Assembly: GCA_003134515.1 (NCBI GenBank) | Contig: PLBM01000043.1 | Span: forward strand, 194-38,142 | Length of the DNA stretch: 37,949 nt | DNA from: Acidimicrobiaceae bacterium | Lineage (GTDB): Bacteria; Actinomycetota; Acidimicrobiia; Acidimicrobiales; RAAP-2 | Direction of reading: 5' to 3' | Notes under the pieces: generated by a model | What the model was told of the DNA's origin: nothing | The model's input: only the letters and a program-made list of their open reading frames with translations | Database searches by the model: none | Translations under genes and position numbers: made by a program | Shown: positions 16,330-36,958 of the stretch, piece after piece | Layout: the number at the start of each line of letters is the position of its first letter | Position numbering within the stretch: the first letter of the stretch is position 1

Positions 16330-17433
16330 CTACCTGTTCGCTCGAAATCGCTGTCTCGCCACTTCGTAACGTTCCCCGTAGGCGCTCATCAATGACGCCA
16401 TCGACCATCGCTCGGCGTGACGCCGCGCCGCAGCGACGCTCGCCTCGCTCTCTTCAGCCAGCGCACGGGCAATCGCCACGCCTAAGGACGACGAGCTCTC
16501 GGGTTGAAACAGTGTCGCGTGGCCACCGGCCGCCTCGCGGTACCCGTCGATATCGCTGGCCACGACCAAGGTCTCACTAGCCATGCCCTCGAGGAGCACG
16601 AGTCCGAAACTCTCGCCGCGTGTCGACGGCGCGATCAATGCGTCCACGCGACGAAGCCACGCGCGCTTGATCTCGTCGTCCACTCGACCGACAAAGACGA
16701 TTCTGTCGTCGTGAGCCGCGAGGGCTTCCAAGCGGCGCCGTTCGGGCCCCTCGCCCGCGATGACCAGTTGCCAGGGCTTTACGTTTTGAGCGTTATGCTC
16801 GCGCACCGCGTCGATCGCCAGGGCCACGCCCTTTCGCTCCTCGAGCCGGCCCACGTAGAAGAGCACCGGACCGACGGCCCGCTCTCGCGGCGTCGCCACG
16901 AATCGATCAACCTCAAAGCCGTTGAAGAGCACCACGCTGTCGAGGCCACAAGCGTGGCGCAACGTCGTCGCCGCGGCCTCACTGACCGACACGGCGTCGT
17001 CAAGCCCGGCGCCTAATCGCGCCATCAACGGCTTGGTGTAGGTCAGCGCCGGACCGTGGCCACTGCGATGAAATGTGCCGAGCGCGGGGTAATCGTGACT
17101 TCGCAGCGTCGACCAACCGAGCAGTGGTGCGAAGGGCTCGTGAAAGTGCACAATATCGGGCTGAAAAGTGCCGATGGCGGCTTTCGCTTTCCTCGCCGCG
17201 GTAAGCGAGAAGGTCAATGGGGCCCTCGAGCCGTTGGTCGGAATCGACCAACGCGTGCCCAGACGAAGCACCTTCGCCGGGGTGTCGTAGATCGTCTCGT
17301 CGCGAATATCGGGCGCAACTATAAGCACGTCGCGACCAGAGTCGCACAGCACGCGACTCATCGCCAGGACCTGTTCTTGGACACCGCCGAAGACACTTAG
17401 CGCGTAGGGCGACACGAGCGCGACTCGCTGCAC
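16330..17433 (-). CDS. pimA: GT4 glycosyltransferase, PimA-like phosphatidylinositol mannosyltransferase
   Basis: RVALVSPYALSVFGGVQEQVLAMSRVL, HFHEPFAPLLGWSTL, FYVGRLEERKG, VDALIAPSTRGESFGLVLLEGMA; adjacent to acyltransferase and pgsA-like genes. GTG start at 17433. Confidence 0.85.
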   Translation of the reverse strand: MQRVALVSPYALSVFGGVQEQVLAMSRVLCDSGRDVLIVAPDIRDETIYDTPAKVLRLGTRWSIPTNGSRAPLTFSLTAARKAKAAIGTFQPDIVHFHEPFAPLLGWSTLRSHDYPALGTFHRSGHGPALTYTKPLMARLGAGLDDAVSVSEAAATTLRHACGLDSVVLFNGFEVDRFVATPRERAVGPVLFYVGRLEERKGVALAIDAVREHNAQNVKPWQLVIAGEGPERRRLEALAAHDDRIVFVGRVDDEIKRAWLRRVDALIAPSTRGESFGLVLLEGMASETLVVASDIDGYREAAGGHATLFQPESSSSLGVAIARALAEESEASVAAARRHAERWSMASLMSAYGERYEVARQRFRANR

Positions 17434-17435
17434 GC

Positions 17436-18323
17436 TCACGACGATGGGAATCGAGGCTGCAACACGTGCCACTGTTCAGGCGCACGGCGAATGAGACCCT
17501 CGAGTTCTCGCGCGATCAGTTGGGTCACTCGGGTCACGTCGTCGCGGAACTTGGCCGTTCGCTCGACTTCGATCGGTGGGGTCACCACCGAAAAGTGATC
17601 CCGGCCCGGACCCGAGTAGCAGGCCGCCGCCACCAGCGTCGCACCGGTGCGCAGCGCCAAGGTCGCCGGACCGGCCGGCATCGTTACTCGCTCGCCGAAG
17701 AACTCCACCTCCACCCCGTTGCCCTGAAGATCGCGATCACAAAGCAGCCCGACCACCCCGCCCTCACGCAGCGCTGCCAACAGCGCCGCACCGGCGTGTT
17801 CGTTCAACGGCTCGATGCGAATGCCAATGGACTCTCGCTTCTCCTTAAACCATTCGAAGAGCTCGGGTGGGTCCAGCTCTTCGGCGACGGCCGTCATGCC
17901 CAGGCCCAGCGAGTTCAAAAATGCGCCGCCCCACTCCCACGAGCCAATGTGCGGCAGTGCGATGATGACCCCTTGCCCGCGCTCTTTGCCCCGGCGAAGG
18001 TGTTCGAGTCCTTCGGCCATCGTAAAGCGCTCGTAGATCGCTGGCTTAGCGAGCGCCGGTAGTTTCGCGCCCTCCGCCCAGTACTGACCGTAACTGCGAA
18101 AGCCGCGCGCCACAAAGTGCTCGAGCAACGTCTCGTTCGGTGCTGAACCAGGTGCAAAGAGGACGCGGGCGAGGTTACTGGTCAGGCCCTCTCTCGCGCC
18201 CCTACTTCGCCGTCCCACCAATCCCGCCAGAGCGCTCGCGACGGCAACATCCAACCGTTCAGGCAACAACTCCATGACGGCGCCCACGGACTTAAAAAGC
18301 GCGACGCGCGCCTTTCGGGCCAC
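17436..18323 (-). CDS. Phosphatidylinositol mannoside acyltransferase-like (LpxL/HtrB family)
   Basis: VIIALPHIGSWEWGGAFLNSLGLGMTAVAEELDPPELFEWFKEKRESIG, VVGLLCDRDLQGNGVEVEFFGE; GTG start at 18323 next to the pgsA stop. Confidence 0.85.
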   Translation of the reverse strand: MARKARVALFKSVGAVMELLPERLDVAVASALAGLVGRRSRGAREGLTSNLARVLFAPGSAPNETLLEHFVARGFRSYGQYWAEGAKLPALAKPAIYERFTMAEGLEHLRRGKERGQGVIIALPHIGSWEWGGAFLNSLGLGMTAVAEELDPPELFEWFKEKRESIGIRIEPLNEHAGAALLAALREGGVVGLLCDRDLQGNGVEVEFFGERVTMPAGPATLALRTGATLVAAACYSGPGRDHFSVVTPPIEVERTAKFRDDVTRVTQLIARELEGLIRRAPEQWHVLQPRFPSS

Positions 18324-18325
18324 GA

Positions 18326-18991
18326 CTAGTGGCGCGAAACGCGACTGAGACCCCGGCGAAGACGCCGACTGTGTTGGCGCGCGCGCAGCGCCGAGGTCGG
18401 CGACGGGGCCGGACGCGCGGCCACCCGCCAGACGCGCCAAAACCGTCCCCCCGCGGTCATTGCCGTCAGGCCCAGCATCAGCCAAAGCACGGGAATGAAG
18501 ATGACGGTCGCGATGAGCCCCACACCCAAGAGGATCATCCGCTCGGCCCGCTCCATCAGACCGCCCTTAGCGTCGAGTCCAAGACTCTCGGCCTTGGAGC
18601 GTTGATACGAGATCATGAAGGTCGTGGTGAGGATCGCGATTGGCAACAAGACGAGCTGGCCGTGATGGCGCGCCGTCAGGTAGTACGCGACACCCCCCAG
18701 AATGATGGCGTCGGCGAGACGATCCGAGACGGAGTCAAAGAAACTGCCCCGCTGGGAGGCGCGGTGGGACGCCTTGGCGACCGCTCCGTCAAAGATGTCG
18801 TGAAAACCGGTCAAGGTCAACAGGACGATCGCCCAAAAGTGCAGGCCGACCGCGATGGCCCAGGCCGTCGCGCAGGCGAACACCAGCCCCGAAGCCGTGA
18901 GCACGTCGGCGGAAAAACCTATTCGTACGAGCCAGCGCCCAATCGGCGCGGTCGTCGCGTCTAGCGACTGGCGGAACTTGCCGTCGAACAT
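18326..18991 (-). CDS. pgsA: CDP-alcohol phosphatidyltransferase (phosphatidylinositol (phosphate) synthase-like)
   Basis: 221 aa; CDP-OH-P motif DIFDGAVAKASHRASQRGSFFDSVSDRLAD, multiple TM helices. Confidence 0.85.
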   Translation of the reverse strand: MFDGKFRQSLDATTAPIGRWLVRIGFSADVLTASGLVFACATAWAIAVGLHFWAIVLLTLTGFHDIFDGAVAKASHRASQRGSFFDSVSDRLADAIILGGVAYYLTARHHGQLVLLPIAILTTTFMISYQRSKAESLGLDAKGGLMERAERMILLGVGLIATVIFIPVLWLMLGLTAMTAGGRFWRVWRVAARPAPSPTSALRARQHSRRLRRGLSRVSRH

Positions 18992-27493: not shown

Positions 27494-29533
27494 TTAGACC
27501 AACTCCCAGCGATGTCGCGACTCGACCAACTGATTGATGGCCGCGGCGGGCATGGGGCGGGCCAGGAAATAGCCCTGACCTCGTTGACAGCCCATTGCGC
27601 GAAGGTGCGCGAGTTGACTCTCATTCTCAATTCCTTCGGCGGTCACCGACAGTTTGAGCGCGTTCGCCATAGCAACGATGGCCTCGACGAGCGCGGTGTC
27701 CAAGGGGTCGGTGCCGAGTCCCTTTACAAAGCCTTGGTCGACTTTTAGTTCATCGATGGGGTAGCGCTTGAGGCGCCCGAGAGACGAGAATCCCGTGCCG
27801 AAGTCATCGATCGAGAGCCTGATACCGAGTGACTTGAGATCGGTGAAGGTCTGACCGAAGTAATTAACGTCGTCCATTAAGACACTCTCGGTCAGTTCAA
27901 AACAGAGTCCCTCACCGGAGAATTTCGTGCGCTCCAACGTTTTCTCGGTGACTTGCACGATGTCCGCCGCCATCATCTGAAGCACGGAGACGTTGACCGC
28001 GACGTTCATGTCGTGGCCGTCAGCGTGCCAGAGGGCTAATTGTGCGCACGCCTGCTCTACGACCCACGCACCAATCTCATCGATGAGGCCTATCTCTTCG
28101 GCGTAAGGAATGAACTCCGCCGGGTTTACTGATCCGAGTTCGGGATGATTCCAACGAAGCAGTGCTTCGGCCGACGCCATGTAGCCAGTCGCCAGATCGA
28201 CGATCGGCTGATAGTAGACGGTGAATTCGTTTTGCTCCAACGCCCGACGCAGTCCGACCATTAAGATCGCTCGTCGCTCCGACTTCCATCGAAGTGATTC
28301 ATCAAAGTATTCAATTTGATTGCCGTCTTGCTCTTTACCTCGAGCGACGCCTACTTCCGCGTCGCGCAGCAACTCCTCGGGCGTTGATTCCGCGGTGGCC
28401 ATGACCACGCCAAGGCTCGCGGTAACCAGGATTTGGTGACCCATATGGAGAAACGGTGCTCGAATCGTCTCGATCACCAGGCGCGCGAGCGAAGCGGTTT
28501 CAGATCCGGTGCTGTCATCACACACGATGATGAACTCATCCGCTCCGATACGAGCGACCGAGTCGGAGGGGCGAATCACCCCGAGTAGTCGTTGCGCGAC
28601 TTGACGAAGGAGCTCGTCGCCAAAGTCGTGCCCCAGCGAAGAGTTGATGAGCTTGAAGTGGTCGAGATTGAGCGAAATCACGCCCAGCCAAATGCCCTGG
28701 CGTTGCGCGCGGCCCTGTGCGTGTTCCAGACGACTGGTCAGTAGTGTTCGATTGGCAACTCCGGTGAGCGGGTCATGGAGACCCTGGAAATCTCGGTGCT
28801 CTTCGATGTTCTTTTGATCGGTGATATCGGGTAAGTGCGCGACGTAATGCAGTGGTTGACCGTCCTCGCCTCGAACGATCGACACGTACGCCGAGGTCCA
28901 CACGAAGGTGCCGTCGGGTCGAACAAAACGCTGTTGTTCGAGATAACCATCTTCACCACCCAAAATCTTTGCGATGACCACTTGCCAATTAGCTACGTCG
29001 TCAGGGTGGGTGTAGTCCGTCCACTGGCGCCCAATAATGGCGTTCATCGGCTGACCAATCAACTGACACGCGGCTTGATTGACGTGTTGCATCGTTCCGT
29101 CGAGTGCGACAACGATGGTGGCGATACCTGACTGGTCGAAGGTCAAATCACTGTGGGTTTCTAACGCCTTACTTTGGAACGTCGCCAGCGACTCAAAGAA
29201 TGACTGCACTTTGACGTCGTGATCAATGGGTAGCCCTAGAAGACGGTTCGCTTTCAGTTCATAGACGTTTCGACGCCCCTCGTGGTGGCGCTCTAAGTAC
29301 TTGTTTTCCACGAGGTCCGCCACGATGCCCTGGGCGGTTCGCTCGCTGATTTCCAAGGACGCCGCGATATCGCGGATACGAATTCTCTGATCGTTCGCGA
29401 TGAGAAGTAGCGCGCTACCATGCTTCGTCAAAAGGGGATAGTCCAGAACCTTGCCCATCAGAACTTCCTTCCTAGACATCGTTACAGCCAGATTAGTGCA
29501 AGAATCTGCACTTATCATAAAACCTGTTAGCAA
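27494..29533 (-). CDS. wHTH-PAS-GGDEF(degenerate)-EAL protein
   Basis: 679 aa; wHTH ALLLIANDQRIRIRDIAASLEISERTAQGIVADLVENKYLERHHEGRRNVYEL; PAS; VARIGADEFIIV; ASAEALLRWNHPE, ELTESVLM, IDDFGTGFSSLGRLKRYPIDELKVDQGFV, TAEGIE. Confidence 0.92.
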   Translation of the reverse strand: MLTGFMISADSCTNLAVTMSRKEVLMGKVLDYPLLTKHGSALLLIANDQRIRIRDIAASLEISERTAQGIVADLVENKYLERHHEGRRNVYELKANRLLGLPIDHDVKVQSFFESLATFQSKALETHSDLTFDQSGIATIVVALDGTMQHVNQAACQLIGQPMNAIIGRQWTDYTHPDDVANWQVVIAKILGGEDGYLEQQRFVRPDGTFVWTSAYVSIVRGEDGQPLHYVAHLPDITDQKNIEEHRDFQGLHDPLTGVANRTLLTSRLEHAQGRAQRQGIWLGVISLNLDHFKLINSSLGHDFGDELLRQVAQRLLGVIRPSDSVARIGADEFIIVCDDSTGSETASLARLVIETIRAPFLHMGHQILVTASLGVVMATAESTPEELLRDAEVGVARGKEQDGNQIEYFDESLRWKSERRAILMVGLRRALEQNEFTVYYQPIVDLATGYMASAEALLRWNHPELGSVNPAEFIPYAEEIGLIDEIGAWVVEQACAQLALWHADGHDMNVAVNVSVLQMMAADIVQVTEKTLERTKFSGEGLCFELTESVLMDDVNYFGQTFTDLKSLGIRLSIDDFGTGFSSLGRLKRYPIDELKVDQGFVKGLGTDPLDTALVEAIVAMANALKLSVTAEGIENESQLAHLRAMGCQRGQGYFLARPMPAAAINQLVESRHRWELV

Positions 29534-29614: not shown

Positions 29615-30346
29615 TCACGTAGCGAGGAACTCCGCGATGACTAACGCTGCTGCTTCGGGAAAATTGTCAACCGTCGCCACGCCCAATGGCGACGGGACGT
29701 CTCGATACTCACCTTGGCGCACTCGTATGACGGGCACACCCACTCGCTGCGCAAGGGCTACGTCTTTATCGACGCGATCACCAATGATGAGCGACTCGCT
29801 CACTTCGAGACCCAGCGCCCGAGACAGCGCCTCTAACCCCACAGGATTGGGCTTTCGACACGACCGGCCTCCGAGTTCGTCCGTGATCACCACTGCGTCG
29901 AAGTAGTGCGCCACACCGAGGGACTGTAACTTCGCGCGCTGTAGGTCGGGATTGCCGTCGGTTAGACACGCAAGGAGGGTCCGACGAGAGAGGGCATCGA
30001 GGCTCTCAATCACCCCGTCATAACACGACATGGAGAGTGGCCGAAAATTGATGAAGGCCTCAACCAGCGGACCCCTTGCCGTGAGAACGTCGTTCGACGA
30101 ACATCCCAATGCCTCTAGCGTGTCGTCAATCGTTTTTCCAGTGTCCGAGCCACGCTTGAGGACGGACGTAAAGGCGTCTGCGAACGTGTTTCGATCGAAG
30201 CCAAGTGACGTCGCTCGCTCCGCGACCGCGCCAATAGCGCCGACAAGGAACGAGCGTTGAGCGTAGAGCGTGTCATCGAGATCCACGACCACTACTCCGC
30301 CGCTACGCGACCCCACCACTACCCACTCACCACGGCAGCACGCCAT
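29615..30346 (-). CDS. HAD-superfamily hydrolase
   Basis: GVVVVDLDDTLYAQRSFLVG, CLTDGNPDLQRAKLQSLG, SCRKPNPVGLEALSRALGLEVSESLIIGDRVDKDV. True start may be a GTG slightly downstream. Confidence 0.88.
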   Translation of the reverse strand: MACCRGEWVVVGSRSGGVVVVDLDDTLYAQRSFLVGAIGAVAERATSLGFDRNTFADAFTSVLKRGSDTGKTIDDTLEALGCSSNDVLTARGPLVEAFINFRPLSMSCYDGVIESLDALSRRTLLACLTDGNPDLQRAKLQSLGVAHYFDAVVITDELGGRSCRKPNPVGLEALSRALGLEVSESLIIGDRVDKDVALAQRVGVPVIRVRQGEYRDVPSPLGVATVDNFPEAAALVIAEFLAT

Positions 30347-31496
30347 TCGTGAAGTCGGGTTCTGGCAACGTCAAGAGGGCGTCAGACTCCGAACTGGAGA
30401 GAATCCGGGCTACTCGCAGCCCGGTCGTACCATCGCCGTAAGGACAGGCCAGGGCCGCGATTCGAGACGGTGCCTCACCCGTGGTGAAGCCACGGGCCGC
30501 CTCCAGCGCGGCGGCCACGCCACGATCGTGGGCGAGCGAGACAAGCACGGCCGAACCGTTCTCCACTCCTTCCCATCTCGGTGTCGAGCCACGCAAGATG
30601 ATGACGGGAACACCAAAGTACGCGGCCTCTTCCTGAAGACCTCCCGAGTCGGTTACGACAAGTCGGGCGTGGCGCAAGCGGTCGATGAATTCAAAGTAGC
30701 CAAGCGGCGGGCACCGAGCGACCTCGTTGGAGAGTTGCGCCTCAGCGCCCGCATTTTCGAGCTGTTGCTCTGTTCTTGGATGAACGGGAAAGAGTACCGG
30801 ACCCACGTGTAGTGAAAGTTCGTTGATCAACGACGTCAATCGGCGCAGTCGGATCGGGTCGTCAACATTGGTGGGCCGATGCGCCGTGACGAGAACGCCG
30901 TCGCGTTCATTAAGTGGGACGCATCCGTATCCGCTCGCCACCAAGGAGTCGATCGCCGAGTTGCCCACGACGAAGATCCGCTCGCTCGAGATGCCCTCGC
31001 GCAGCAGAAAGTTCCGCGAGCGCTCGGTCGGCGCAAAGTGCATCGAGGACCCCGCGCTGGCCACGCGACGATTTAACTCTTCAACGCTTCGCTCGTTAAA
31101 ACTTCGAAGTCCGGCTTCGAGATGGACAAAGGGAACTGAGTTTCGCCGGGCCGCCAAAACGTACGCGGGCACGGTTTGGGTGTCACCCAACGCCAGCACG
31201 ACGTCGGGTTCATATTCGCGAACCAGTCGCATCGCGCTGGCATGAATCTCTCCCACGCGTTGATCAGGATCGATCGAGAGCACGTTCGCCACGTCCACGG
31301 AAAGTTCCAGCGCGTTCGCGATCTCACCACTCATGTTTGATGACGAGTGCTGACCCGTGTCGACCGTGACCACGTGGTGACCAACGTCGCGCAGCGCGCG
31401 CACGACCGGGGCGAGCTTGACTATTTCGGGACGGGTGCCAAAGGGCACGAGAATGCGGCGAGTCCGGTCTGCCGCGTTCTGCCCTCGCTCACTCAT
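30327..31496 (-). CDS. wecB: UDP-N-acetylglucosamine 2-epimerase (WecB family)
   Basis: 389 aa; ILVPFGTRPEIVKLAPVVRAL, DTGQHSSSNM, HLEAGLRSF, VTDSGGLQEEAAYFGVPVIILRGSTPRWEGVENGSAVLV. Confidence 0.92.
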   Translation of the reverse strand: MSERGQNAADRTRRILVPFGTRPEIVKLAPVVRALRDVGHHVVTVDTGQHSSSNMSGEIANALELSVDVANVLSIDPDQRVGEIHASAMRLVREYEPDVVLALGDTQTVPAYVLAARRNSVPFVHLEAGLRSFNERSVEELNRRVASAGSSMHFAPTERSRNFLLREGISSERIFVVGNSAIDSLVASGYGCVPLNERDGVLVTAHRPTNVDDPIRLRRLTSLINELSLHVGPVLFPVHPRTEQQLENAGAEAQLSNEVARCPPLGYFEFIDRLRHARLVVTDSGGLQEEAAYFGVPVIILRGSTPRWEGVENGSAVLVSLAHDRGVAAALEAARGFTTGEAPSRIAALACPYGDGTTGLRVARILSSSESDALLTLPEPDFTNGVLPW

Positions 31497-33931
31497 CAGA
31501 CACCACTCGTTTCAAAGATGTCTTCAAAGTACCGGGTCATGCGCACGCCGACGTCGAAGTACAGCGGCGCGATGCGCCGCTCGGGTTCGAGAATGGCTTG
31601 GAGGTACGCGCCCACCACATCCGCGCCGGCGGCCAAAGTCAACGGGAGGCCGCCGGAGAACCGTGGATTGAGCTCGATGATCGACACCGCGCCCGAAGGG
31701 TCGACCATGCCTTGAATGTTGATCGGTCCGGTGATCCCCGTCGCGGCCACCACCTCGGCGCACACGCGGGTGACTTCGATTGAATCGAAGGTCAGTCCCT
31801 TGACCGAGATTCCCCCGCGCGTCTCTAAGCGCCACCGTGGCACGCACGTCACCACTTGGCCGTTTCGATCGACCAAAACATCGGCCGTGAACTCCTCACC
31901 CATCAGACGCGACTGCGCGATGAGTTCTTTGTCGTGGCGCATGATCCGGCGAAGAACCCGACGGTCATCGACCAGAGCGAAACCACGACTCCCCCGACCG
32001 CGACGAGGTTTGACGATCCACGGACCCGGTAAACGTCGGCTACCCCGCGAGGTCGTCGCGGTCGGAGGGTGCGCAATGCCGTACTCCTCCATCGCGAAGG
32101 CAAAGGCGGCTTTATCGAGACACCGCGCCACCGCCTCGAGGTCGGGAATCCAGGTCTTACAACCAAGGTCACTGAGGTCCAATGCGATCGCGGCGAGCGG
32201 CGCGTACTCCTCGGCCACGGTGCAGATGAGGGCTTGCACCTTAGTAGCTTCAACAATTGAAGTGAGCCCATCGGCGAAACTCTCGTCGTCAAAGCGCGGC
32301 ACGACGCCCGTTTGAACACCGGGCAGTTGAAAACCGGCGGCGAAGGGATCGGCGTCGAGGGCGACGACGCTGTGACCCGCGAAGAGCAGGGCTCGAATCA
32401 CGGCCAGGCCGGCCGGACCTCCGGCGCCACTCACCGCGACTCGAAAGGGTCCCCCGCGCCCGACACCTCCGACGAACTGCGGTTCGGACAACTTCTCGAT
32501 CGCCAGTCGTTTACCGTGTCGGCGTTTACCGTTCGAATCTGAGCGCTCCGGTACGATCGGCGCGGACACGTTGAGTTCGGGCACGGACAGCACCTCCAGT
32601 CGATGGGACAAGAGCCACGCTCGTGCCCACAGACGTAGCGCCGCCACGCCCGAGTTCGAGACCGGTTCCCACTGGCGCTTGGCAATCGCCTCCACCAGGG
32701 CCTGAATAACGTAGTCGTCCTCTTCTTCCGCCGCGACGCTGAGCAACGAGTACGCGTGGTAAGCGAGACCCTGATCGCCCAACTGCGTCACGAGTCGGAT
32801 CTTGACAGAGGATCTGTCCGTCGTGCTCTGCAAGAGTCGTTGGCACTTTCTCTCTCGACGTTGAGCGAACGGTCCAGTGGCAAACCTCTTGAGAGCGAGC
32901 ACGTCGAATGGTGGCAACGGACCGACGCCCTCGATGACTCTTCGCGACGACCATGCCCGACACCATAAGAGCAGCGAAGCGGTGCGATCGGTGGTAACTG
33001 GATCGTGTGCGTGAATGAAGACGGCCCTCGCTAACGCGTCCAGCACGGTGAAGTCTTCCTCGAAGACCGCGAGCGCCATAAGCGACGCCCCCTGGGTTTC
33101 TAATCCGTTCGCGGAGAGTGTCGCGATGGCGGCACAGCGCTGTTCGACGTTGAGAAAGCCAATGCGAAAGTCAATCCGGTTGGACTCACGGCGTCGAGCC
33201 AGCCAACGGCGCGTTTTCGCTGGCACAAAGTAGCGAATCAGCCAGCCCGTCAACGATCGCCGATTCGAACGCACGCGCTGCACCGCCGGGATGCGGTACC
33301 CCAGCCCGGCGTGGGACCAGGATTCGGGGCGACGCGCGGTATGTCGCCCGTAGCGATCTTGTTCGGCCCGTTCAGCCGTTGGCAGCGTCAGATACAACAA
33401 CAATAAAAAGCCCAGCAGAGTGGCGACGAAATTCCATACCGTGCCAACCCAGTCGTGAAACAACAGCAACGCGCCACGGCCGAACCAGAGACCGGCGACG
33501 CTCGATGCGGCCATTCGCCCAAGATTCAAGACAAACAGCATCGAGGCCGACACGATGTAGGCGACCACGGTATGGCTTCGCCGCCCTCTAAGAACAGCGA
33601 TGGCGAGGGTGCCCAGCGCGAGTATCCCCATGAGCGATGAGCACGAGGGCGAGATGAACGCCAAGATCGGCCGATGGCCCGGCGAGGCAATAAGCAGATT
33701 GTCACCGACCGCCAGGGTGACCCCACGAGCGCCAAAGAGACGAAACAGCCACGCCAACGAATCCAGCTCGACCCGGCGCATCGGGCCAATGAGCGTTTCA
33801 AAGAGTACGAGATAGCCAACGGTCAGAGCCCACAGTTCGCCCAGCACCGCCCACCGACGGCGCCGCGTGCCCGCCCTCGTCGACGCTCCCTGGTCAATGT
33901 CGTGGCGCGCCCGGGGATCGATCGTCGTCAT
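31496..33931 (-). CDS. Fusion protein: exosortase/archaeosortase-like membrane domain, helical linker, ATP-grasp domain
   Basis: 811 aa from MTTIDPR. N-terminus has four TM helices with SPSCSSLMGILALG (Cys), VLNLGRMAA (Arg), LLFHDWVGTVWNF (His). C-terminus VAVSGAGGPAGLAVIRAL...PWIVKPRRGRGSRGFALVDD...INIQGMVDPSGAVSIIELNPRFSGGLPL is ATP-grasp. Confidence 0.85.
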   Translation of the reverse strand: MTTIDPRARHDIDQGASTRAGTRRRRWAVLGELWALTVGYLVLFETLIGPMRRVELDSLAWLFRLFGARGVTLAVGDNLLIASPGHRPILAFISPSCSSLMGILALGTLAIAVLRGRRSHTVVAYIVSASMLFVLNLGRMAASSVAGLWFGRGALLLFHDWVGTVWNFVATLLGFLLLLYLTLPTAERAEQDRYGRHTARRPESWSHAGLGYRIPAVQRVRSNRRSLTGWLIRYFVPAKTRRWLARRRESNRIDFRIGFLNVEQRCAAIATLSANGLETQGASLMALAVFEEDFTVLDALARAVFIHAHDPVTTDRTASLLLWCRAWSSRRVIEGVGPLPPFDVLALKRFATGPFAQRRERKCQRLLQSTTDRSSVKIRLVTQLGDQGLAYHAYSLLSVAAEEEDDYVIQALVEAIAKRQWEPVSNSGVAALRLWARAWLLSHRLEVLSVPELNVSAPIVPERSDSNGKRRHGKRLAIEKLSEPQFVGGVGRGGPFRVAVSGAGGPAGLAVIRALLFAGHSVVALDADPFAAGFQLPGVQTGVVPRFDDESFADGLTSIVEATKVQALICTVAEEYAPLAAIALDLSDLGCKTWIPDLEAVARCLDKAAFAFAMEEYGIAHPPTATTSRGSRRLPGPWIVKPRRGRGSRGFALVDDRRVLRRIMRHDKELIAQSRLMGEEFTADVLVDRNGQVVTCVPRWRLETRGGISVKGLTFDSIEVTRVCAEVVAATGITGPINIQGMVDPSGAVSIIELNPRFSGGLPLTLAAGADVVGAYLQAILEPERRIAPLYFDVGVRMTRYFEDIFETSGV

Positions 33932-33938
33932 CACGGCT

Positions 33939-35471
33939 CTAGGTCGACTTGACTCGGGCGAACGTGCGCGAGCCGACCGCACTGATTTCGTCGAGTCCAC
34001 CCGAGCGCATCACCAAGCCAGTGGTGGCCATCAAGGCGCCTTCACTGGACTTGGTCTCCACGCGGGCGGCGTCGCTCGTGCGGCGACGCATCAGGGGATT
34101 ATTGACAATGGTCGTCACCGAGTAGGACGAACCCACCTCGCTTGAACGCGTGGTCTTCACCCACGAGTACGGGCGACCGAGCATGCCGTCGACGTACGCC
34201 CAGGTCGTAATGACGATGGACAGCGCAAAGCTCGGCAGGAAACCAATCAGGTGCCACGCGCCGCGCCGTTCGACGCGGCCGAGTAAGAGCCCCACCGTGA
34301 GTTCGGCCAAGGGGCCCAAGAACAACAACAAGGTGAGGGGCAGTAGCGCCACCGCCGGGATGTTCCCGATGCCAAAAAGTCGCGCGGCCGTGAGCACAAT
34401 GCCCAGGCCCGAGAGAACTGGAATGTGATAGATGAAGAGGAACATCACGAACTCGGCCTTTTCGCCCCAACTCAAATTTGGGCTGCGCAACGTCGGGATG
34501 AGGTAGTCCCGCGTGCACTTTTGGTGGCCCCGAGCCCATCGGTAGCGTTGCTTCCAAAATCGACGAGCGACGAGCACGGCCTCTTCGAAGTCGACGGCCG
34601 TGGGGTCGTAGCGAACGCGTCCGCCGGCTAACAGCACGCGAATCGTTAAGTCGGTGTCCTCGGTCACGGTCTCGGTGTTCCAGCCACCCAGTCGCACCAA
34701 GGTCGAACGGCGTACGGCGCAGTTGGCCCCGCCGTACGCCGGGAGTTCGTAAAGCGCCTGGCGACCGTACTCGTTGACGAGGTAGCCAGAGAGAAAATCG
34801 ATGAACACCACTCCGGCGAGTTGGCTCTCGTTGCCGTTCCTAATGACGCAACGACCCATCACACAGTCGACTCTCTCGTCAAGAAAATGACGTACCAGGC
34901 GGCGCAACACGTCACCGGCCGGTTCGTGATCGGCGTCGAACACGCAGATAATCTCGACGTCGACGAGCTCGAGCGCCGCGTTCAACGCACCGGACTTTCC
35001 CCCACCGGCCCCCGAGGGACGGTGGACCACCGTCAGTCGGCCGTCCAGTTCCGCCCAGTAGTCGAGCCTTTCGCCGGTGCCGTCGCTCGACCCGTCGTCC
35101 ACGATGATCAGTTGCAAACTCTCCGCGGGATAGTCCAGTCGAAAGAGCGCTCGCACGAGCTTGTCGACCACCAAGACTTCGTCCTTGCACCCCACAAAGA
35201 CCGCCACCGTGGGCACGTAGTCGCTCAAGCCCACGTCCGCGGCGTAGAGGTCTTTTTCCACCCAGCGCGCCGCCGAGATCGCAAAGCCCAAATGGCGGAC
35301 GAAGAAGAAGAAGAACACCACCATGAGACCCCAGGCCATAAACGCGGCGGTACGTCCAAGGCCAAAGTAGGCAATGAATCCCGCCGTAATGGCGGCGTAG
35401 ACCAGAATCGCGACGAAGTGACTCTTGGGCCGACCAGATGACGTCGGGCGTACGGCGCGCATCAATCGCAA
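33939..35471 (-). CDS. Processive GT2-family membrane glycosyltransferase (BcsA/PgaC/HAS-like)
   Basis: 510 aa; IIVDDGSSDGTGERL, CVFDADHEP, VTEDTDLTIRVLLAGG, RRFWKQRYRWARGHQKC (QxxRW), flanking TM helices. Confidence 0.92.
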   Translation of the reverse strand: MRLMRAVRPTSSGRPKSHFVAILVYAAITAGFIAYFGLGRTAAFMAWGLMVVFFFFFVRHLGFAISAARWVEKDLYAADVGLSDYVPTVAVFVGCKDEVLVVDKLVRALFRLDYPAESLQLIIVDDGSSDGTGERLDYWAELDGRLTVVHRPSGAGGGKSGALNAALELVDVEIICVFDADHEPAGDVLRRLVRHFLDERVDCVMGRCVIRNGNESQLAGVVFIDFLSGYLVNEYGRQALYELPAYGGANCAVRRSTLVRLGGWNTETVTEDTDLTIRVLLAGGRVRYDPTAVDFEEAVLVARRFWKQRYRWARGHQKCTRDYLIPTLRSPNLSWGEKAEFVMFLFIYHIPVLSGLGIVLTAARLFGIGNIPAVALLPLTLLLFLGPLAELTVGLLLGRVERRGAWHLIGFLPSFALSIVITTWAYVDGMLGRPYSWVKTTRSSEVGSSYSVTTIVNNPLMRRRTSDAARVETKSSEGALMATTGLVMRSGGLDEISAVGSRTFARVKST

Positions 35472-35476
35472 CAGTT

Positions 35477-36175
35477 CTAGCCCGACGTCGTCAGCCGTTG
35501 CAGGATCTCTTCGGCCGACGCGTGCACGTCAATGTAATCGTCGAGAATCGAACGAGGCGAGCCCATGTCCCAGACGAAGCGCACGGGCACAAAGGCCTCG
35601 GCCAGAACGACGCGCGCGAACGCGCCCCAGTGGCGAGCCGAGGCCGCGATCGCGTCAAGTTGGACCGACTCAGCGTTTACTTGGGACTTGTGGCACGTCA
35701 GGGCCGAGAGCTTGGCGCCGAGATGGTCACTGATGTCGACGAAGATCGTTGGCTCAAATCGGGTGGTCGACGGCGACTGATAGTAGAGAATTCGAGACGT
35801 GCGTCGTCCCGCCGAGACGGTAGCCGCTGCCACGATTCGATGGTCTTGGTGGGCGTCATCGGGCGCGTGCACGTAGATGACGTCGGGGCGCACCGCGTCC
35901 ATGACGGCTTCGATGCGATCAATCGTCGTGTGATCGTCGGGAATCCCGCAGTCCACAAAGCCACCCCAGTAAAGCGATGCCCCCAGACTCTTGGCCGACG
36001 CCTCTTGCTCGAGTTCACGGAGATTGCCCAAGTAATTTCTCGACTGCTCGCCGCCGGACATGACGAGAATGCTCGTCGAATGACCCATCGCGCGGTGCGC
36101 CGAGAGCGCGCCGGCGCAACCTAGCTCCACGTCGTCGGGATGACTTCCAATTGCGAGCACACTTTTTACAGTCAC
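35477..36175 (-). CDS. PIG-L/LmbE family N-acetylglucosamine deacetylase-like
   Basis: GTG start: VTVKSVLAIGSHPDDVELGCAGALSAHRAMGHSTSILVMSGGEQ; HAPDDAHQDHRIVAAATVSAGR. GTGA overlap with the upstream gene. Confidence 0.9.
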   Translation of the reverse strand: MTVKSVLAIGSHPDDVELGCAGALSAHRAMGHSTSILVMSGGEQSRNYLGNLRELEQEASAKSLGASLYWGGFVDCGIPDDHTTIDRIEAVMDAVRPDVIYVHAPDDAHQDHRIVAAATVSAGRRTSRILYYQSPSTTRFEPTIFVDISDHLGAKLSALTCHKSQVNAESVQLDAIAASARHWGAFARVVLAEAFVPVRFVWDMGSPRSILDDYIDVHASAEEILQRLTTSG

Positions 36176-36675
36176 GGTGTTGCCTTCCTTTTCGCGGTGC
36201 GTCGAATCACGACCACACCGATAAGAACTCCGAGGCCGATCGCGATGACGAGACTCAGGCCTAAGGGATCGACCGGGAGCGATGAGCCAGAACACGCAGT
36301 ACTCGTCGCCGTCGCCGTCGCGGATTGACCTTCCACCGTCCAGGTGATCGATTGGTTGTGCGCCAGCACATTAAAGGCGTTCGTCACCGTACCGGTAATG
36401 AAACTCGTTGGCTGGTTGCCGTCGTACCTCGACGGAGTGACCTGATTGGAACTCCCGTCGGGGTAATTGGCGGCCGTTCCGGAATTTGAGTAGCCAAAGT
36501 ACGCGGTGAAATTGTGACCAGTATCCAGCGTCACGCACGTCACCGTGGGCACCACGTTCGCCGTAGCGGCGGCGGCTGGCGGTGACGCCGCGATGAGCGT
36601 CGCAGCCAACAGCAACGCCGTGACGCCCAAGAGACTGGAAACCTGCTTCGTTGGCGACAACCAGACTTGACTCAT
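36172..36675 (-). CDS. Secreted protein with C-terminal tripartite sorting-like tail; candidate exosortase substrate
   Basis: 167 aa; signal peptide (LLGVTALLLAATLIAASPPAAAA), central TAYFGYSNSG...NQPTSFITGTVTNAFNV region, tail LPVDPLGLSLVIAIGLGVLIGVVVIRRTAKRKATP (motif + TM + basic). Confidence 0.72.
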   Translation of the reverse strand: MSQVWLSPTKQVSSLLGVTALLLAATLIAASPPAAAATANVVPTVTCVTLDTGHNFTAYFGYSNSGTAANYPDGSSNQVTPSRYDGNQPTSFITGTVTNAFNVLAHNQSITWTVEGQSATATATSTACSGSSLPVDPLGLSLVIAIGLGVLIGVVVIRRTAKRKATP

Positions 36676-36958
36676 GTGTCTTCTCTCTGAAGACCCGGCC
36701 CAGATGGCTAGAGGTTCGTGATCTAACAGTTACTTAATCTCCTCATCCTCCTAAGTCCCGTTAGTTTCATTTCCCTCTGGAATAATCGCTCCAGGGCCAA
36801 AATGAACAATTGGAACTACGTGGTGTACTAGTAAACGGCGCCGTCCCTTCGACGTCTCGCCAATACTCAGGGTTTACGCAGGAATGGTTCAGAACCAATG
36901 CGAACTCCGAGGTAGTTTCTACATTGAAGATTCCCTACAAGATCGTCGGAGGTGTACC

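Follow-up and report, generated by a model that had tools for sequence, protein, structure and literature searches.

Exosortases sort secreted proteins, and the target to which they attach their substrates has been described as still unidentified (PMC7468200). In the actinobacterial locus analyzed here, a predicted exosortase is fused to an ATP-grasp ligase and encoded together with amino-sugar enzymes and a small secreted protein. What acceptor, if any, would such an assembly make and use? Positions below are those of the window, that is, the whole stretch of 37,949 nucleotides of Acidimicrobiaceae DNA that was analyzed.

The operon and its products

Six open reading frames were found on the minus strand, from 36675 to 29615, in the order substrate, PIG-L, GT2, fusion protein, WecB, and HAD. 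The first-pass annotation had described a six-gene operon with minute gaps and overlaps, and its frames, coordinates, and junctions were recovered unchanged. The features are the following:

36172..36675, minus strand: substrate, 167 aa, with a signal peptide, the C-terminal sorting signal CSGSSLPVDPLG, a membrane helix, and a basic tail
35477..36175, minus strand: PIG-L/LmbE-type N-deacetylase without a signal peptide; HPDD and HxxH conserved in relatives
33939..35471, minus strand: GT2 membrane glycosyltransferase; DDGS, DAD, TED, and QRYRW motifs conserved
31496..33934, minus strand: fusion of exosortase, HEAT-repeat segment, and ATP-grasp ligase; start GTG 33934 or ATG 33931
33356..33931, minus strand: exosortase domain of the fusion, four predicted membrane helices, C-terminus cytosolic
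32465..33355, minus strand: linker and HEAT-repeat domain of the fusion, a separate gene in many relatives
31496..32464, minus strand: ATP-grasp ligase domain of the fusion; ATP-binding and ELNPR metal motifs conserved
30327..31496, minus strand: WecB, non-hydrolysing UDP-GlcNAc 2-epimerase; catalytic residues conserved
29615..30346, minus strand: HAD phosphatase; DxDxT and GDR.DKD motifs conserved

The five junctions measure, in operon order, -4, 5, 4 or 7, -1, and -20 bp. Thus, the PIG-L start GTG (36175) overlaps the substrate stop TGA (36174-36172) as GTGA; 5 bp lie between the PIG-L stop (35477) and the GT2 start TTG (35471); the GT2 stop (33939) precedes the fusion start by 4 bp (GTG 33934) or 7 bp (ATG 33931); the fusion stop shares 1 bp with the WecB ATG (both at 31496); and the HAD ATG (30346) lies 20 bp inside the end of WecB (30327). 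On its 5′ side, the operon meets a divergent plus-strand gene at 36884; on its 3′ side, 81-156 bp separate it from a GGDEF/EAL gene. No promoter-like or terminator-like site exceeding the shuffled-sequence expectation was found in the operon region. From the gene overlaps and the conserved arrangement (see below), we infer that the six genes are probably co-transcribed. The GGDEF/EAL protein (27494-29533) has N-terminal winged-helix-like and PAS-like regions, and its gene is not kept beside the cassette among the relatives looked at.

The fusion protein is 811-834 aa long, depending on the start. Hydropathy and charge give its exosortase domain four helices with both ends cytosolic, as a ligase joined to its C-terminus and working in the cytosol would require. 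The domain scores 30-33 bits against the exosortase/archaeosortase signature TIGR04178 (cut-off 23), and this profile matches all 13 aligned exosortase members (E up to 0.01, best 1.2e-11). Residues C97, N136, R139, H159, and D160 (counted from the ATG) are identical in 13 of 13 aligned members and at least 93% conserved in an alignment of 66 rows. This modest signature score, the invariant residues, and the presence of cognate substrates place the domain in the exosortase/archaeosortase superfamily, with a correspondingly predicted activity. The nearest named NCBIfam subfamilies by profile score are XrtS (21-48 bits, cut-off 145) and XrtR (13-24 bits, cut-off 150); named Xrt subfamilies were rejected as its home, the scores being far under their cut-offs. 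Judged by these profiles, the exosortase is a new subfamily, lying under every named cut-off tested.

The middle segment, spanning roughly residues 230-450 when counted from the ATG, is a HEAT-repeat domain that the first-pass annotation had missed. The corresponding segment of relatives (L129, L050) exceeds the Pfam HEAT_2 gathering score, and the AlphaFold model of the fusion has a helical-repeat array here. The mean pLDDT of this model is 84.6, with values under 50 in the linkers 186-224 and 451-491 and a pTM of 0.49, at which the relative placement of the domains is not trusted. The ATP-grasp domain (Pfam ATPgrasp_Ter, 65 bits) has as its nearest solved folds 2pn1, a protein of no known function (Z 31.7, rmsd 2.3, 283 residues), and PylC (Z 26.7, rmsd 2.7, 286 residues). 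L-amino-acid ligases follow at a short distance, and the scores of further carboxylate-amine ligases and of carboxylases are only slightly lower. The ATP-binding Lys and the E-x-N metal motif (K664, E776, and N778, numbered from an upstream GTG at 34000) are conserved. By its modelled fold and its ATP and metal motifs, the domain can be assigned to the ATP-grasp carboxylate-amine ligases. A missed stop codon was rejected as the source of the fusion: L047, L048, L049, L077, and Micromonosporaceae keep an open Xrt-HEAT-ATP-grasp frame.

The sugar enzymes match Pfam PIG-L (82 bits), GT2 (83 bits), Epimerase_2 (264 bits), and HAD (64 bits). Solved relatives of the PIG-L protein deacetylate small sugars or oligosaccharides (BshB-like, diacetylchitobiose). 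The GT2 has about two N-terminal and three to four C-terminal membrane helices. Its closest solved relative by sequence, ahead of the cellulose synthases, is the family 2 transferase 6yv7, which we take to be an archaeal enzyme of lipid-linked glycans that has the cellulose-synthase fold in a minimal form. Its best NCBIfam match is the poly-beta-1,6-GlcNAc synthase (PgaC/IcaA, TIGR03937), at 111 bits against a cut-off of 422. WecB scores 246 bits against TIGR00236 (cut-off 210) and conserves D105, E127, E140, and H206. Since catalytic residues are kept in every enzyme, none of the cassette enzymes is a relic.

The substrate body (residues 41-121) is a beta-sandwich; this is the sole fold claim made for it, because no PDB match was found at E 0.001 or better. 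FGY and QPTxF motifs occur in the beta-sandwich bodies of most substrates. Across loci, the C-termini comprise a conserved Cys followed by a motif, one membrane helix, and basic residues. The motif is LPAxGNG in the substrates of Geodermatophilaceae and Micromonosporaceae, summarised as LPxxGNG, and LPVDPLG in those of the clade of the window; PVG-type variants also occur. In some lineages, unrelated bodies carry a tail of this kind, in keeping with a sorting signal. No NCBIfam CTERM model, PEP-CTERM included, was at or near its cut-off for the window substrate and four relatives. The tripartite signal is thus a predicted new sorting signal.

One or two small secreted proteins are encoded in the majority of loci whose flanks are intact, and with few exceptions their genes share the strand of the cassette. 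By profile search, which divergent substrates may escape, adjacent substrates were found in about 40 of the 65 loci having both exosortase and ATP-grasp, as well as in the window; the window genome has one copy, and other genomes have one or two strong matches. Genomes G006 and G122 gave only weak matches. In these two genomes, large secreted proteins of 732-753 aa with a sorting-type C-terminus are encoded (L050:13463-15661 and L051:12579-14840); their genes are transcribed divergently from the cassette, and they are probable alternative substrates. Taken together, the secreted substrate and the co-encoded exosortase with its full catalytic set make a self-contained protein-sorting cassette a well-supported prediction.

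Distribution and fusion states of the cassette

The cassette has eight parts: substrate, PIG-L, GT2, exosortase, HEAT-repeat segment, ATP-grasp, WecB, and HAD. It is scattered among actinobacteria of soil and fresh water and was detected in Acidimicrobiia, Geodermatophilaceae, Micromonosporaceae, Catenulispora, Pseudonocardia, Acidothermus, and Kitasatospora. When named genomes were scanned with the ATP-grasp alignment, 80 loci were obtained, all ascertained through that domain, including loci in Actinoplanes, Micromonospora, Pilimelia, Geodermatophilus, Blastococcus, and Klenkia. Exosortase and ATP-grasp occur together in 65 of the 80 loci and all eight parts in 36; the run GT2-Xrt-HEAT-ATPg-WecB is common to some 50. 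The fetched neighbourhoods repeat the order given above for the eight parts, and its recurrence in distant actinobacteria argues that the arrangement is more than chance. The gene order noted in the first-pass annotation is therefore not limited to one strain, and a one-strain oddity was rejected as an explanation, the same cassette recurring in other genomes as well as in distant actinobacteria. No paper linking an exosortase to an ATP-grasp protein or describing an actinobacterial exosortase locus was found in the collection of papers searched.

Because the loci were ascertained through the ATP-grasp, two checks were made from the exosortase side. Searched alone against 396 genomes of the phylum, the exosortase profile had three strong matches (E below 1e-40), all of them inside the cassette. 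For three ATP-grasp loci without an exosortase (L114, L117, and L135), the exosortase was found elsewhere in the genome, beside GT2, PIG-L, and HEAT-ATP-grasp. Among the remaining ATP-grasp loci without an adjoining exosortase, some lie at contig ends, one (L132) is decayed, and the others are L127, L133, and L136. The last of these is a short contig binned to Deltaproteobacteria with cassette GT2, HEAT, ATP-grasp, and WecB genes, which reflects wrong binning or else transfer beyond the phylum. In three genomes (G852, G853, and G854), a divergent second HEAT-ATP-grasp adjoins the exosortase (L184, L185, and L186), and the canonical ATP-grasp, HAD, and WecB are at a separate locus from it. Distant exosortase-like proteins of Acidimicrobiia (L177 in G152 and L178 in G169; E 1e-8 to 1e-10) apparently belong to other sorting systems.

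Exosortase, HEAT segment, and ATP-grasp were found in four architectures: all separate, Xrt-HEAT with ATP-grasp, Xrt with HEAT-ATP-grasp, and Xrt-HEAT-ATP-grasp. Their occurrence as separate, half-fused, and fully fused proteins points to one pathway. The full fusion was found in 4 of 61 related genomes, the window included. Some long frames in GC-rich loci (L075 and L122) are ambiguous and were left out of the full fusions. In the congener G006, exosortase and ATP-grasp are adjacent separate genes. A class-wide search raised the number of cassette-bearing genomes further.

In an ATP-grasp tree built by a quick method, the five-member clade of the window joins Micromonosporaceae with the full fusion and Geodermatophilaceae with a partial one (support 99), apart from the congeners G006 and G122. 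The system is present in 7 of 99 genomes of the genus of the window. This occurrence and the grouping in the one quick tree point to a possible spread of the cassette by horizontal transfer.

Across the 65 loci with exosortase and ATP-grasp, there is no conserved gene for a flippase, a polymerase, or an exporter. A flippase or polymerase as a hidden ninth component was also rejected, since no further gene is conserved across loci. Gene families shared by 5-10 loci reflect partly lineage synteny; in Catenulispora and Pseudonocardia, such a family consists of alternative substrates.

A putative linker and the alternatives

In the proposed mechanism, WecB would supply a 2-epimerised UDP-HexNAc, GT2 would transfer HexNAc to a membrane acceptor, and HAD would take off a phosphate. 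Cytosolic PIG-L would expose the amine of the sugar, to which the ATP-grasp domain would join an amino acid (or a similar acyl group), giving an aminoacylated amino-sugar linker. The substrate would be exported by Sec and retained by its C-terminal helix; the exosortase Cys would then cleave the LPxxGNG-type motif, and the new C-terminus would pass to the free amine of the linker. The HEAT segment and the gene fusion would hold the ligase beside the sortase at the membrane and so couple the making of the acceptor to its use.

We consider it an even call whether the deacetylase, epimerase, GT2, ligase, and phosphatase make such a linker for attachment of the substrate by the exosortase, and the linker chemistry taken on its own stands at about the same level. 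The closeness of the ATP-grasp fold to PylC and L-amino-acid ligases and the T9SS and ArtA precedents (see below) count for the linker, and the conserved order, the four fusion architectures, the kept catalytic residues, the searches from the exosortase side, and the shared substrate signal count for a cassette combining it with sorting. The recurrence of much the same enzyme set in loci lacking an exosortase, described below, also speaks for this reading. Against the linker count the lack of a flippase in the cassette, the QxxRW motif of GT2, which is common to polymer synthases, and the nearest ATP-grasp structure being 2pn1, of no known function. Slightly short of even is our estimate for the wider proposal of an undescribed exosortase class, patchy but widespread in Actinomycetota, with a complete acceptor pathway anchoring LPxxGNG-type proteins on Gram-positive cells.

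The first-pass annotation had suggested a different product, a deacetylated amino-sugar polymer. In this model, GT2 would make a partly deacetylated, PNAG-like polymer, and the exosortase would only co-display or attach a protein binding it. The poly-beta-1,6-GlcNAc synthase match and the QxxRW motif favour this reading, and one GT2 of this type is able to polymerise in principle. However, the PIG-L protein is cytosolic, unlike PNAG deacetylases, which act outside the cell; no PgaD/IcaD, polymerase, or exporter is conserved; and the obligatory ATP-grasp fused to the exosortase is left unexplained. The exosortases of proteobacteria, which are located in exopolysaccharide clusters (PMC1569441; PMC12188702), are a further point for a polymer. 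What holds of the earlier reading is that this actinobacterium has a compact exosortase locus in which amino-sugar enzymes are encoded next to a sorted protein and in a conserved order; the making and deacetylation of a polymer is weakened by the missing PIG-L signal peptide and by the absence of flippase, polymerase, or exporter genes in the 65 loci, and we regard it as unlikely. The linker fits better, because of the relatives of PIG-L, the lack of conserved export or polymerase genes, and a core ATP-grasp fused to the exosortase.

A little less likely still is that the free amine of the deacetylated sugar is itself the exosortase acceptor, as in a GPI-like glycolipid anchor, with the ATP-grasp otherwise employed, e.g., in acyl ligation elsewhere on the linker. 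In GPI synthesis, PIG-L acts on GlcNAc-PI. A CDP-alcohol phosphotransferase, an acyltransferase, and a GT4 in a row at 16330-18991 of the window resemble a phosphatidylinositol mannoside cluster, which suggests that PI is available as a lipid acceptor. The archaeosortase ArtA, too, needs enzymes of an amine-bearing lipid (PMC7157517). Yet of all the parts, the ATP-grasp is tied most closely to the exosortase, as would befit an enzyme of the final step before sorting. It seems improbable that the exosortase is a mere protease releasing the substrate, with the sugar genes making an unrelated envelope metabolite in the same operon, since several fusion states and near-strict co-occurrence argue for one pathway. 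In favour of such a separation, much the same set of deacetylase, ATP-grasp, phosphatase, and GT2 recurs without an exosortase, which suggests that these enzymes may form a biosynthetic unit with a function of its own. One exosortase-free operon (L144:8911-13441) encodes a response-regulator receiver-PIG-L protein, an ATP-grasp, a PHP-like protein, a GT2, and a small membrane protein; here, receiver and PHP are names based on sequence motifs. This operon was also found in L138, L140, L141, L145, L146, L061, and L063, from Blastococcus and two Acidimicrobiia.

Comparison with known systems

The cassette resembles the Gram-negative PEP-CTERM/exosortase system (XrtA/EpsH) in the Cys, Arg, and His residues of the exosortase and in substrates with a signal peptide, a C-terminal motif, a helix, and a basic tail. 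Genes for a deacetylase and for amino-acid transfer are reported to neighbour PEP-CTERM/exosortase loci (PMC7468200), as those for a deacetylase and a putative amino-acid ligase do the cassette exosortase. In contrast, the cassette has monoderm hosts, another sorting motif, usually one or two substrates, a sortase-ligase fusion, and no conserved polysaccharide export genes, and its PIG-L and ATP-grasp replace a polysaccharide deacetylase and a FemAB-type protein.

In the type IX secretion system (T9SS), cargo C-termini are amide-linked to 2-N-seryl or 2-N-glycyl amino-sugars, the making of which is ascribed to an amino-acid transferase together with a putative deacetylase and, for one species, with an epimerase that is predicted; such a linking compound was proposed for exosortases too (PMC7468200). 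PorU with Wbp/Vim and the cassette would share the logic of deacetylating a HexNAc-type sugar, aminoacylating it, and amide-bonding it to a protein C-terminus, with a 2-epimerase predicted in T. forsythia as WecB is in the cassette. The enzyme families differ for sortase, deacetylase, and aminoacylation, and the cassette has no sign of LPS or uronic acid. Its enzymes match the PIG-L, ATP-grasp, and exosortase families, and the likeness to Wbp/Vim and PorU is one of functional analogy.

ArtA with PssA/PssD is a second precedent for acceptor-synthesis genes tied to a sorting enzyme: sorting is linked functionally, and in Methanosarcina genetically, to the synthesis of an amine-bearing lipid, whereas its acceptor is a phospholipid in archaea, made without sugar enzymes. 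The pathways of mycothiol and bacillithiol use a glycosyltransferase, a phosphatase (mycothiol), a PIG-L-type deacetylase, and an amino-acid ligase. The cassette follows the same order of logic, but has a membrane GT2 instead of a GT4, an ATP-grasp in place of MshC/BshC, and a coupling to protein sorting. The cassette suggests that deacetylation, aminoacylation, and conjugation form a recurring solution reached through unrelated enzymes.

As far as sequences allow, what is new here would be the exosortase subfamily, its sorting signal, and an acceptor pathway that is encoded alongside the sortase and in part fused to it. The likely acceptor pathway, the sortase, and one substrate share an operon, the last ligase of the pathway is fused to the sortase, and cultured, genome-sequenced Geodermatophilus, Blastococcus, and Actinoplanes carry the cassette, which makes the question of the exosortase acceptor directly testable.
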